A stretch of 32,495 nt of DNA from NCBI GenBank assembly GCA_014859225.1, contig JACUUP010000005.1, positions 1-32,495 on the forward strand. Direction: 5' to 3'. The position numbers and the translations under genes were made by a program. Below are positions 9,244 to 13,941 of this stretch, piece after piece. The notes under the pieces are model-generated. The model saw only the letters and a list, made by a program, of their open reading frames with translations. It did not search any database and had not been told where the DNA came from. Position 1 is the first letter of the stretch. Each line of letters opens with the position of its first letter. Source of the stretch: Candidatus Aerophobota bacterium (GTDB taxonomy: Bacteria; Aerophobota; Aerophobia; Aerophobales; B3-G15).

Positions 9244-10803
9244 ATGGATACAAAAATGAAAATATATGATACAACACTTAGAGATGGAGCTCAGGCAACA
9301 GGGGTTTCCTTTTCTCTTCTTGACAAGCTGCAAATTGCTAAAGAACTTGACAGGTTAGGTTTTGATTATATTGAAGGAGGATGGCCCGGCTCTAATCCCA
9401 AGGACATGGAATTTTTTAAAAGGGTTAAAAATATTCCCCTTAAAAAAGCTAAAATAGCAGCTTTTGGAAGCACGAGAAGAAAAAATACCTGTGTGGAGAA
9501 GGACTCTCACATCTTAGCTCTACTTGAAACAGAAACTCCTGTTGTTACTTTATTCGGTAAAAGCTGGATATTACATGTGGAAAAGGCTCTGCGCACAGAC
9601 AAAGAAGAGAATTTGAGGATGATTGATGAATCTATCAGTTTCTTTAAAAAAATGGGGAAAGAAGTTATTTTTGATGCGGAGCATTTTTTCGATGGGTATA
9701 AAGACAATCCCCTCTATGCTATAAAAACTCTTCATGTAGCAAAAGATGCCGGCGCTGATTGTATTGTTTTGTGTGATAGCAACGGGGGTTGCATGCCTTA
9801 CGAGATAGACCAGATTGTCAGGGTGATAAAGGAAGAGCTTAGATATTCCTTAGGTATTCATACTCACAATGATAGTGGTGTAGCTGCCGCAAATACTATT
9901 GTGGCAGCACGCATTGGGGTTGACCAGGTTCAGGGCACAATAAATGGGTATGGAGAGCGATGTGGCAATGCTGACCTTTGCGTGGTCATTCCCAACCTGA
10001 AACTTAAATTAGGCGTGGGGTGTCTTTCAGATGAGGCTTTAAAGTCTTTAACCCGAATCTCTCGTCTGGTTAATGAACTTGCCAATTTGACTTCTAATGA
10101 GCATCAACCTTATGTTGGCAGGTCTGCTTTTACTCATAAAGGAGGGATTCATGCAAGTGCCATCTCGCGTGATAGAAAAACATATGAGCATGTTGACCCC
10201 GAGTTTGTGGGAAACAAAAGAAGGGTTATCGTAAGCGAACTTGCCGGGAGAAGTTCTGTTCTGTATAAATTAGAGGAGAGAAATTTAAACGTCAAAGACC
10301 CCAACCTTGTTTCCGCTGACCTGATTAATAAGATAAAGAGGTTGGAAAGCCAGGGTTACGAGTTTGAGGCTGCGGATGGCAGTTTTGAACTTCTGGTCAA
10401 GAAAGGCACGGGAGAGTATAAGAAATTATTTGCGGTTGACGGTTTTCGGGTTATCGTAGAAAAAAGGGATGATGGGAAACTTATCTCTGAAGCTACCATA
10501 AAACTGAAAATTGGAAACAGGTTAGTTCATACCGTAGCAGAGGGAAATGGTCCAGTAAATGCTCTGGACAGGGCGTTAAGAAAAGCCTTACAGGATGACT
10601 TTCTCCAGATCTCTGAAATGCATCTTTCTGATTACAAGGTGAGGATACTTGATACAGGAGCGGGAACCGGTGCAACAACAAGAGTCCTTATTGAATCTGC
10701 CGATAAGGAAGATAGATGGGGTACGGTGGGAGTTTCTCCTAACATTATTGAAGCAAGCTTTATAGCTCTCCTTGATGCATTTGAATACAAACTAAACAAA
10801 TAA
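9244..10803 (+). CDS. cimA: (R)-citramalate synthase
   Basis: KIYDTTLRDGAQATGVSFS, LGIHTHNDSGVAAANTI, INGYGERCGNADLC, long LeuA-type dimer domain at C-terminus (ISEMHLSDYKVRILDTGAGTGATTRVLIE). Confidence 0.9.
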   Translation: MDTKMKIYDTTLRDGAQATGVSFSLLDKLQIAKELDRLGFDYIEGGWPGSNPKDMEFFKRVKNIPLKKAKIAAFGSTRRKNTCVEKDSHILALLETETPVVTLFGKSWILHVEKALRTDKEENLRMIDESISFFKKMGKEVIFDAEHFFDGYKDNPLYAIKTLHVAKDAGADCIVLCDSNGGCMPYEIDQIVRVIKEELRYSLGIHTHNDSGVAAANTIVAARIGVDQVQGTINGYGERCGNADLCVVIPNLKLKLGVGCLSDEALKSLTRISRLVNELANLTSNEHQPYVGRSAFTHKGGIHASAISRDRKTYEHVDPEFVGNKRRVIVSELAGRSSVLYKLEERNLNVKDPNLVSADLINKIKRLESQGYEFEAADGSFELLVKKGTGEYKKLFAVDGFRVIVEKRDDGKLISEATIKLKIGNRLVHTVAEGNGPVNALDRALRKALQDDFLQISEMHLSDYKVRILDTGAGTGATTRVLIESADKEDRWGTVGVSPNIIEASFIALLDAFEYKLNK

Positions 10804-10818
10804 AGAGGGGTAAACGTA

Positions 10819-10947
10819 GGGGTCAGGTCTTGCAATATCACATTTTCAAGATGACAGATCAAGTCTTGAACGTTTGACATAAAACATAAAGCACGTTAAT
10901 TCCCTGAAGCATAATTTCTATCATGTGATATTGCAAGACCTGACCCC
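10819..10947. mobile_element. MITE/REPIN-like element: two perfect 25-bp inverted arms around a 79-bp core
   Basis: GGGGTCAGGTCTTGCAATATCACAT (10819-10843) is the exact reverse complement of ATGTGATATTGCAAGACCTGACCCC (10923-10947). No plausible CDS in the core. Confidence 0.8.
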
Positions 10948-10956
10948 CCAAGTTTA

Positions 10957-13941
10957 TTAACCTTTAATAACTCCCAGGGGGACCATCTTTACTACTTTTC
11001 TGGCAAGACCTGCCTTTTCCACGATATCAACTACCATGTCAACATCTTTGTAAGCCTCGGACATCTCTTCGGCAATCGTTCCCCTTCCTTTAGCTATAAC
11101 AAGAATACCTTTTTCTTCAAGTTCCTTTTCAATTGACCTTCCCCGAGCAGCTCTTACTGCGGCACTTCTTGAGAGGACTCTTCCTGCTCCGTGACAGGTG
11201 CTTCCCCAGGTTTCCTCCATGGCTCGTTCCACTCCAACCAGGACATAGGAGGTGGTTCCCATATCTCCAGGAATAAGCACAGGTTGTCCTACTGATTTAT
11301 AGACACCGGGCACCTGAGGGTGGTTAGCAGGGAAAGCTCTTGTTGCTCCTTTTCTATGGATAAAGATAGTTTTTTCCTTTCCGTTGAAACTGTGTTCCTC
11401 AAATTTTCCTATGTTGTGGCACACATCATAAACAAGCCTCATCCCTAACTCTTTCGGGGAAAGATTAAGCACCCTCTGGCAAACTTCCCTTGTCCAGTGC
11501 ATAATGACCTGCCTGTTTGCCCAGGCATAGTTTGCTGCTCCTGCCATAGCGGCAAAGTAGTCTCTTCCTTCCTTAGATGTTATGGGAGCACAGGATAGCT
11601 GGCGGTCAGGAAGAGAGATGTGATATTTATCAACAGCTCTTCTCATTACCGCAAGATAATCATCGCATACCTGATAGCCAAGACCACGGGAACCTGAGTG
11701 GATAATTAACACAATTTGCCCTGCAAAAAGACCAAATGCATTGGCGATGTGCTCATCAAAAACTTTTTCTATTACATCTACTTCAAGAAAATGGTTACCG
11801 CTACCCAGCGTTCCTAACTGGTTGTTGCCCCTTTTATAAGCCTGCATACTCACCTTCTCAGGGTCTACCCCCTGCATGCAGCCATAGTCCTCACATCTTT
11901 CCAGGTCTTCTTCTTCTCCGTATCCTCTTGCTACTGCCCATTTTGCCCCTTCTTTTAAAACTTTTTTTAACTCGGGAAGGGAAAGTTTTAATTTGGAGGT
12001 AGAGCCAACCCCGGAGGGGATACTGTTAAAGAGGGAAGAGAGGAGCTGTCTTAGTTTAGGCTTTACATCCTTTGGTTGAAGATTAGTCCTGATGAGTCTT
12101 ACGCCGCAGTTAGATACGACAAAACTGTTAGCTATAAAATTGTGATGAGGATGTTTAACTGTAAAATCGTATACATAATCATTGAAGTCAATTTGTTTTT
12201 TCTCTACTATTTTGTCCCACACCATGCCCGAGGTTTCTAAGCCTTCAGTAGATTTTTTTAGAAACTTAGAAAAAATGGGAAAGTTAAAACCTATTCTGGG
12301 AATTCCTTTCCTTCCACCATACATTGACCTTTGTATAAATCGCAGGTTTACGTGCGGAGAGTTGATGGTTTTTAGAATAGCTTTCGCTCCAAGGTGAACA
12401 GTATTTTTGAGTTCTAAAGCCCGACTGGCAACTTCCTCTCGTTCACTTAGCACATTTTTCTTCTCTTTTAAAAACTGGACTGCCACGTTAGCTAAAAACT
12501 TTCTCTTCTGGTTATACTCAAATCCTACTTTAGTGTATAATTTAATAAGGTCTTTATCTTTTCCGGAGATGATTAATCTTAACCTGATGGTTTTCCCTTC
12601 AGAAGTAGTTTTTTCTTCTCTTGAGGTTATTTTATGAGTTTTGACTCCAAATTCCATCAATAAATCTTTAATCTGGGAAAGAAATTTTCTGCCACTTACC
12701 TCTTTACTCTCCCTTTTATTTAAAGATACTATAGGGCAGTATAGGTTGTATCCGTGCCTGGTAAGAGTTTTTGGACTGGACAGTTCTGCCCCGAAAAAAC
12801 TGGCTAAAAATAATCTTTTCTGCCATAAAGGAGCACTAAAAATCCACTCAGGGACAAGATAATCCTTTTGAGCTTTTCTACCGTAAGGAGTTCCCAGGCT
12901 AATAAGTAGAACTGCTAAACTACTTGATATCACCCTGCAGCAGGTTTCCCTGGTTGAGAACATGTAGCTGGCATAATGAGTTGTTATTTTATGGTCTCTT
13001 TCACGATTGTAGGTTTTAGAGCAGGTAAATCCTAAGGCAAAAATGTCTTTTCTGATTTCTTCCAGGTCTTCGGGAAGTCCATAAAAACCGATGATGCCTT
13101 TTTTGTTCTGATTAACAAAATGAATGCACCCGTCTCCAAAAATATATCCCATAAGTTTCAACAGATAGGGAAGCTGCAAAGAGTTGTAGCGAAGAGGTAA
13201 AAGTCCTCTTTGATGAAGATGCTTTAAAATTTGCCCGGTTGCGTTACCATTATGGGAAGAATTTTTCCTTAATTCAGTAAGAGTCCTCTTAATATCTTCA
13301 CTGGTAAGGATTACCTTATTGCTTGGTTTCTTGTACGGGACTCCTTCAAAGGAATTTACAGCTACCTGCTCTGTTTTTTTTAAATCCTTAAGAGGTTTCA
13401 TCCCATCTTTAGTATAAAAAGGATGGTCCTCGGTCGCTACTATGCTTTTTCCGGTGGAGGTCTTAATTTTATATACTTTATTAGAAGGTTTGCGTTTTAA
13501 GAAAAAGGAAACAGGAGTTTGGACTGGTTTATTGTTAATAAAGTCAAAACAGCTTATTTCTTCTTTTTGCCATATATCCTCAAAATCTTTTATCTTTAGA
13601 TGGTATCCATGGAAGTGCAGCACTTCTGTATCACCGGAGAGGCAGTTGATATCATAGCCAATTCCACCCGGCGAGATAACTCCTCCTGCATCCGGGTCGG
13701 TGGCGGCTACCCCTCCAATGCAAAAACCGTAGCCCCAGTGCATATCAGGCATAGCAAGCGAGTATTTGATAATACCAGGAAGGTGAGCCACATTTTTTAC
13801 CTGAACAGGGGTGTTATCTTTTTTTATCACCTGCAGCATCTTTTCGTTGGTGTAGAGTCTTCCCGGAACTCTCATCCCTCCGGATTTAGGTATCTCCCAT
13901 CTGTAATCATCAATTTTTCTTATATCAAAGTCATTACTCAT
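10957..13941 (-). CDS. rtcB: RNA-splicing ligase RtcB, interrupted by an in-frame intein
   Basis: Exteins show RtcB motifs (AMPDMHWGYGFCIGGVAATD, GGVISPGGIGYDIN|CGVRLIRTNL, LGTLGSGNHFLEVDVI, HSGSRGLGYQV, HRKGATRAFPANHP, IPGDMGTTSYVL, HGAGRVLSR). Removing 512 aa leaves a normal-length 482-aa RtcB. Confidence 0.97.
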   Translation of the reverse strand: MSNDFDIRKIDDYRWEIPKSGGMRVPGRLYTNEKMLQVIKKDNTPVQVKNVAHLPGIIKYSLAMPDMHWGYGFCIGGVAATDPDAGGVISPGGIGYDINCLSGDTEVLHFHGYHLKIKDFEDIWQKEEISCFDFINNKPVQTPVSFFLKRKPSNKVYKIKTSTGKSIVATEDHPFYTKDGMKPLKDLKKTEQVAVNSFEGVPYKKPSNKVILTSEDIKRTLTELRKNSSHNGNATGQILKHLHQRGLLPLRYNSLQLPYLLKLMGYIFGDGCIHFVNQNKKGIIGFYGLPEDLEEIRKDIFALGFTCSKTYNRERDHKITTHYASYMFSTRETCCRVISSSLAVLLISLGTPYGRKAQKDYLVPEWIFSAPLWQKRLFLASFFGAELSSPKTLTRHGYNLYCPIVSLNKRESKEVSGRKFLSQIKDLLMEFGVKTHKITSREEKTTSEGKTIRLRLIISGKDKDLIKLYTKVGFEYNQKRKFLANVAVQFLKEKKNVLSEREEVASRALELKNTVHLGAKAILKTINSPHVNLRFIQRSMYGGRKGIPRIGFNFPIFSKFLKKSTEGLETSGMVWDKIVEKKQIDFNDYVYDFTVKHPHHNFIANSFVVSNCGVRLIRTNLQPKDVKPKLRQLLSSLFNSIPSGVGSTSKLKLSLPELKKVLKEGAKWAVARGYGEEEDLERCEDYGCMQGVDPEKVSMQAYKRGNNQLGTLGSGNHFLEVDVIEKVFDEHIANAFGLFAGQIVLIIHSGSRGLGYQVCDDYLAVMRRAVDKYHISLPDRQLSCAPITSKEGRDYFAAMAGAANYAWANRQVIMHWTREVCQRVLNLSPKELGMRLVYDVCHNIGKFEEHSFNGKEKTIFIHRKGATRAFPANHPQVPGVYKSVGQPVLIPGDMGTTSYVLVGVERAMEETWGSTCHGAGRVLSRSAAVRAARGRSIEKELEEKGILVIAKGRGTIAEEMSEAYKDVDMVVDIVEKAGLARKVVKMVPLGVIKG
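12109..13644 (-). other. Intein (512 aa) with LAGLIDADG homing endonuclease domain, inserted in RtcB before the metal-ligand Cys
   Basis: Block A CLSGDTEVLHFHG; block B GKSIVATEDHPFYT; LAGLIDADG-like LLKLMGYIFGDGCIHF and KRLFLASFFGAELSSP; block F/G YVYDFTVKHPHHNFIANSFVVSN followed by Cys +1. Confidence 0.95.

Follow-up and report, generated by a model that had tools for sequence, protein, structure and literature searches.

Within the 32,495-nt stretch of DNA analysed here (the window; contig JACUUP010000005.1 of a Candidatus Aerophobota bacterium), the 129 bp at positions 10819-10947 are, with a probability of about 90%, a MITE of the TIRtron family, with arms that serve as the ends recognised by a Y1 (HUH) transposase of the TIRYT/TnpAY1 subclass 2.1 type, which the draft genome encodes once, on another contig (C77). 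Judging from the sequences, the C77 enzyme very probably moves the 129-bp element. The type of family is already known; what seems to be undescribed is how many phyla it extends to, and that a 7-base stutter recurs at the element ends.

The first-pass annotation had described perfect 25-bp inverted arms, 79 nt apart, in the convergent gap between cimA and rtcB. Both the arms (10819-10843 / 10923-10947; 25 nt, 100% complementary) and the position were confirmed, and the features around the gap are listed below.

9244-10803, + strand: cimA, with HMGL-like and LeuA_dimer domains; its stop lies 15 nt left of the element
10819..10947, no strand: whole miniature element (129 bp), between the 3' ends of the convergent cimA and rtcB
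10819..10843, + strand: left terminal inverted repeat (TIR), GGGGTCAGGTCTTGCAATATCACAT; the core 20-mer occurs in 14 further genome pairs
10844..10922, no strand: non-coding spacer of 79 nt, which differs between copies and has no detectable similarity to the transposase element
10923..10947, - strand: right TIR, the exact inverse of the left arm
10957-13941, - strand: rtcB, convergent with cimA; its stop lies 9 nt right of the element

Arms of 25 bp are far beyond chance: in 30 order-1 random windows of matching composition, perfect inverted repeats with arms no more than 300 nt apart reached 14 bp at most. The ssDNA of the element forms a single long hairpin of -31.5 kcal/mol (shuffles, -9.9 +/- 2.4; z = -9.2), and the RNA fold with flanks gave a z of -9.9. 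The spacer bears a small extra inset compared with 123-bp copies. It is non-coding, as the first reading held. The sole ORF of at least 80 aa that touches the element (10632-10880, - strand) runs opposite the last part of cimA and appears to be spurious. An Rfam search of the element at E up to 1 gave no match.

The host genome is a draft (1.8 Mb, 273 contigs, 91% complete), from which further transposases could be missing. It contains 14 paired copies of 74-129 bp without a gene, ten of them full length (121-129 bp, 80-100% identity) and the shorter ones 74, 95, 93 and 93 bp; with one pair enclosing 928 bp, the arm pairs total 15. Contigs C109 and C44 each have a single recognisable arm only, which is degenerate. 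The arm pattern GGGGTCAGGTCTTGCAATAT, with at most three mismatches, matched the genome 32 times, and the reversed-pattern control gave 0 matches. Among the ten full-length copies, 4 of 500 arm positions and 89 of 728 interior positions deviate from the consensus (Fisher p = 1e-16). Neutral decay after insertion should strike arms and interior equally; the simplest reading of the aligned copies would be a population of long standing, multiplied solely through members with good arms while the interior drifts, as described for REPINs. No similarity was found between the miniature interiors and the transposase element, so the miniatures are not simple internal deletions of it.

When the 15 pairs of the host genome were compared by eye, no consistent target duplication was found and no target consensus or motif was evident at the insertion sites. 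At the transposase loci of relatives, 1-nt and 2-nt flank matches were each present in 10 of 56. A joined-arm excision footprint, GGGGTCA-N0-20-TGACCCC, was sought in ten genomes and matched in two places, on both strands in each and one of them inside the end of a known miniature; as none lies in the host genome, there is no sign of clean excision scars. At two copies (L004 and L005; G000 C93 and C133), the neighbour gene runs ~27 nt into the element before its stop, which falls at the inner arm edge, so that the arm seems to encode the last residues of the neighbour protein.

Seven relatives retain the convergent cimA-rtcB pair, one from the same family (G002) and six from the same order (G004, G006, G007, G011, G012 and G013), and the element is absent from the gap (about 4-60 bp) in 7 of 7. 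Given this gene pair without the element, the element most likely entered between cimA and rtcB after the split from the compared lineages. The comparison with the empty site of a sister genome that had been proposed was thus realised in part: the element-free gene pair was found, in relatives that are other genera or families with diverged gap sequences and not a sister strain. The gap in G002 (L141) holds a different short inverted repeat, GGTTCTTGGTTATT...AATAACCAAGAACC.

These results bear on the proposal that the structure is a bidirectional intrinsic terminator or an mRNA 3'-end hairpin specific to the cimA-rtcB gap and not mobile. The hairpin is strong on both strands, and ten of the ten copies with mapped neighbours have an end within ~30 nt of a stop codon. 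However, there is no T-tract beside the hairpin and a terminator scan gave 0 matches; moreover, at least 14 gene-less copies with homologous arms are spread genome-wide, ten of them with homologous interiors, the seven relatives with the same gene pair lack the element, and the arms are common to a transposase gene. A terminator as the origin of the element, as distinct from a secondary terminator effect, is refuted by the copies, the element-free relatives and the transposase-associated arms, and we consider this explanation very improbable. The first-pass annotation would have favoured a simple terminator given a single copy and no transposase flanked by the arm; about 15 copies were found, and the transposase on C77 is flanked by the arms.

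At C77:13783-14710, the identical arm type encloses 928 bp with a single gene of 287 aa, which ends with its stop codon where the right arm begins on its inner side. The encoded protein matched Pfam Y1_Tnp with 53 bits (cut-off 23) and NCBIfam NF047646, REP_Tyr_transpos, with 90 bits (cut-off 80), together with helix-turn-helix (HTH) families at its C-terminus. Its HUH motif is NHYH and its catalytic-tyrosine stretch is Y119-VVLNP; in the alignment with 35 relatives (36 sequences), N59-H60-Y61-H62, Y119 and L122-N123-P124 were invariant or nearly so. Searches of PDB sequences with phmmer and a profile gave no match, and relatives were found through fold comparison only, in which the predicted fold (pLDDT 86) best matched 4er8, the E. 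coli TnpA-REP with a REP hairpin, and then ISDra2/IS608 TnpA. The enclosure of the C77 transposase by the arms, and the recurrence of this pairing in unrelated genomes, support the C77 enzyme as the mover. The multiple copies and the arm-flanked gene of the Y1/RAYT family support the core of the earlier view, in which the element is non-autonomous and owes its mobility to a Y1 transposase of the REP-associated kind. The earlier remark that the window has no transposase also agrees with our data, all three Y1 genes found in the genome being located on contigs other than that of the window.

The narrower label REPIN, also given at first, did not hold, and TIRtron/TIRYT fits better. Canonical REPINs consist of a pair of REPs, each headed by GT[AG]G, and go with a GTAG-type RAYT. 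The two inverted arms and the spacer do form a hairpin, and NCBIfam names the transposase REP-associated. Further likenesses to the REPIN/RAYT systems, as presented in the pertinent sections of Bertels & Rainey (2011, PMC3116915) and Nunvar (2010, PMC2817692), are the inverted conserved ends around a spacer, a presumed mobilisation in trans by a Y1 transposase and ends conserved well over the spacer. In contrast to those systems, the 129-bp element lacks GT[AG]G, at the arm heads as well as elsewhere, its arms are free of internal palindromes, a single arm alone does not fold (0.0 kcal/mol), the copy number is low (only about 15), and the transposase is of another subclass, with the long C-terminal HTH region of subclass 2.1, which the relevant part of PMC6006769 reports as not associated with REPs. 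A canonical REPIN is therefore highly unlikely.

Two other Y1 genes are present in the genome, one of 230 aa on C2 and an IS200-like one on C243, the latter broken by a TAG stop (G000:C243:817-1182). DDE-dependent MITEs generally duplicate their target. That the miniature is moved by the C2 or the broken C243 transposase, or by an undetected DDE enzyme of the kind for which long TIRs are typical, is the least probable explanation and hardly credible, because the arm pattern (at most three mismatches) is absent from C2 and C243, the arms enclose the C77 transposase only, the pairing of transposase and miniatures recurs in unrelated genomes, and no consistent target duplication was seen.

The wider distribution of the TIRtron-type family was assessed by a protein search of 84,980 species genomes, which gave 421 relatives, the best 80 of which were taken. 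The inverted-repeat screen around the gene comprised 79 transposase loci (C77 and, from other genomes, 78 of the best 80). In most of the 79 the gene is bracketed by GGGGTCAGGTCTTG or something close to it, the two repeats usually being 900-1000 bp apart (about 925); a minority (e.g. L088, L089, L101, L108, L128, L131 and L132) showed no such repeat in this screen. The hosts, among the best 80 of 421, are labelled as Nitrospirae, Nitrospinota, Deltaproteobacteria, Alpha-, Beta- and Gammaproteobacteria, Acidobacteria, Actinomycetota, Omnitrophota, Aminicenantes, Elusimicrobia, Acetothermia, Bipolaricaulota, Anaerolineae and Neomarinimicrobiota. At arm positions 15-23, the mismatch was 23% within an element versus 53% between elements, and the variable part of the arm tracks transposase similarity (Mantel r = 0.35, 0/5000 permutations), a correlation that may in part reflect shared descent.

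Transposase and miniatures were found together, each time with a host-specific arm variant, in MAGs of Oxalobacteraceae (L095; 80 arm matches, miniatures mostly 61-94 bp), Omnitrophota (L099; miniatures of 50-84 bp) and Elusimicrobia (L125; miniatures of 53-114 bp). G003, of the same order as our genome, has miniatures of 219-368 bp and a partial transposase (142/287 residues matched). Many phyla thus share one recognisable end sequence, and at least four genomes with an intact transposase also hold non-autonomous partners. The arm counts in 25 genomes were mostly few, barely above those of the transposase element. In the Oxalobacteraceae genome G076 (L170-L186), a T precedes GGGG and an A follows CCCC in nearly all miniatures, which extends the TIR there by one base; an inverted-symmetric outer base was found at 33 of 56 transposase loci.

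The names TIRtron and TIRYT were given to Y1 transposases with flanking long TIRs carrying GGGGWSAS, and TIR families are described there as occurring as singles, dimers or clusters in a genome (Di Nocera et al. 2013, PMC3733652). In the passages on TIRYTs in Quentin et al. (2018, PMC6006769), 20 of 26 examples were placed in TnpAY1 subclass 2.1, which has a C-terminal HTH and no REPs, and in the corresponding passages of both papers TIRYTs were set aside as needing further analysis. The C77 gene likewise encodes a Y1 enzyme with an HTH at its C-terminus and has long TIRs on either side. Every intact arm has GGGGTCAG, which fits the GGGGWSAS motif of PMC3733652, and both an arm-sharing Y1 gene and a repeated family (14 miniature pairs and one transposase-bearing pair) are present. 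The features of subclass 2.1 (NHYH, YVVLNP as Y--LNP, and HTH) are present too, the assignment being made by motif comparison with the table in PMC6006769 and not by a tree. Unlike the TIRYTs in the descriptions given in those passages, the family studied here has miniatures of 50-370 bp, conserved arms with a drifting interior, and the end stutter, and its hosts cover many more phyla. Neither GGGGTCAGGTCTTG nor GGGGTCAGGTCT had a relevant match in the paper texts searched, and the arm could be among the TIRs in Di Nocera's Figure 9.

With IS200/IS605 elements (IS608, ISDra2), the family would share the HUH/Y1 catalytic fold, as predicted by the model, and may also resemble them in lacking a consistent target duplication; the difference is that those elements, in the account of PMC2817692, have small subterminal hairpins and no terminal inverted repeats, whereas near-perfect TIRs of 20-25 bp are present here. 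Bacterial MITEs (RUP, NEMIS, Nezha and others treated in PMC3733652) are alike in size, TIRs of 15-30 bp, non-coding nature and mobilisation in trans, but most of the studied ones depend on DDE enzymes according to the relevant part of PMC2817692, while the partner here is a Y1 enzyme. Should elements with long, near-perfect TIRs indeed be moved by Y1 enzymes, the rule that Y1 goes with subterminal hairpins and TIRs go with DDE would fail.

By analogy with IS608 and TnpA-REP, the locus would become single-stranded, as on the lagging-strand template, and the arms would pair into a hairpin on the ssDNA. The Y1 transposase may then recognise and bind the arm ends and cut them with its tyrosine, and the miniature would be moved or copied in trans into short intergenic gaps, with no target duplication; such a system may be active at present.

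At many loci, the flank (X, 5-12 nt) is repeated just outside the arm, the two copies being separated by the arm's first bases, giving X-GGGGTCA-X-GGGGTCAGGTC.... This stutter (X of at least 5 nt) was present at 40 of 310 distinct ends from 28 loci (including L030, L035 and L042), versus 0.2 expected per set for random flanks and 0.55 for a shuffled arm prefix; because the stutter was first noticed in the flanks and then counted in a set of loci that was mostly unchanged, these figures apply to that set. Of the 40 copied prefixes, 20 are exactly 7 nt long (GGGGTCA), and the others 4, 6, 8, 11-12, 16 or 20-27 nt. In the host genome, the C77 element and the copies on C228 and C16 show the stutter, and the window copy does not. 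At L129 it is present at both ends with a different X at each, so the stutter is a per-end event, and target duplication was rejected as its cause.

The likeliest origin of the stutter would be either slippage of the polymerase at the foot of the hairpin or processing by the transposase at a point 7 nt into the arm. Replication slippage at microhomology was considered and set aside, as the flanks of the first stutter copy share little sequence with the TIR prefix; this near-lack of microhomology, together with the sharp 7-nt mode, leans towards transposase processing. We tentatively suggest, as one possibility with the odds somewhat against it, that the ends are cut after GGGGTCA and re-joined 5-12 nt upstream, leaving a tandem flank + GGGGTCA. 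If so, the stutter would show where an uncharacterised class of transposase cleaves, and it would be a novel type of footprint through which arrays of arms slowly accumulate. It offers a directly testable guess at the cleavage position.

The rtcB gene to the right of the element (10957-13941, - strand) bears an intein (Pfam Intein_splicing, residues 111-611 of 994). The two flanking RtcB parts are contiguous, with no intein, in G002, G004, G006 and G012, and the RtcB of G007 retains the intein C-terminal sequence at 65% identity.
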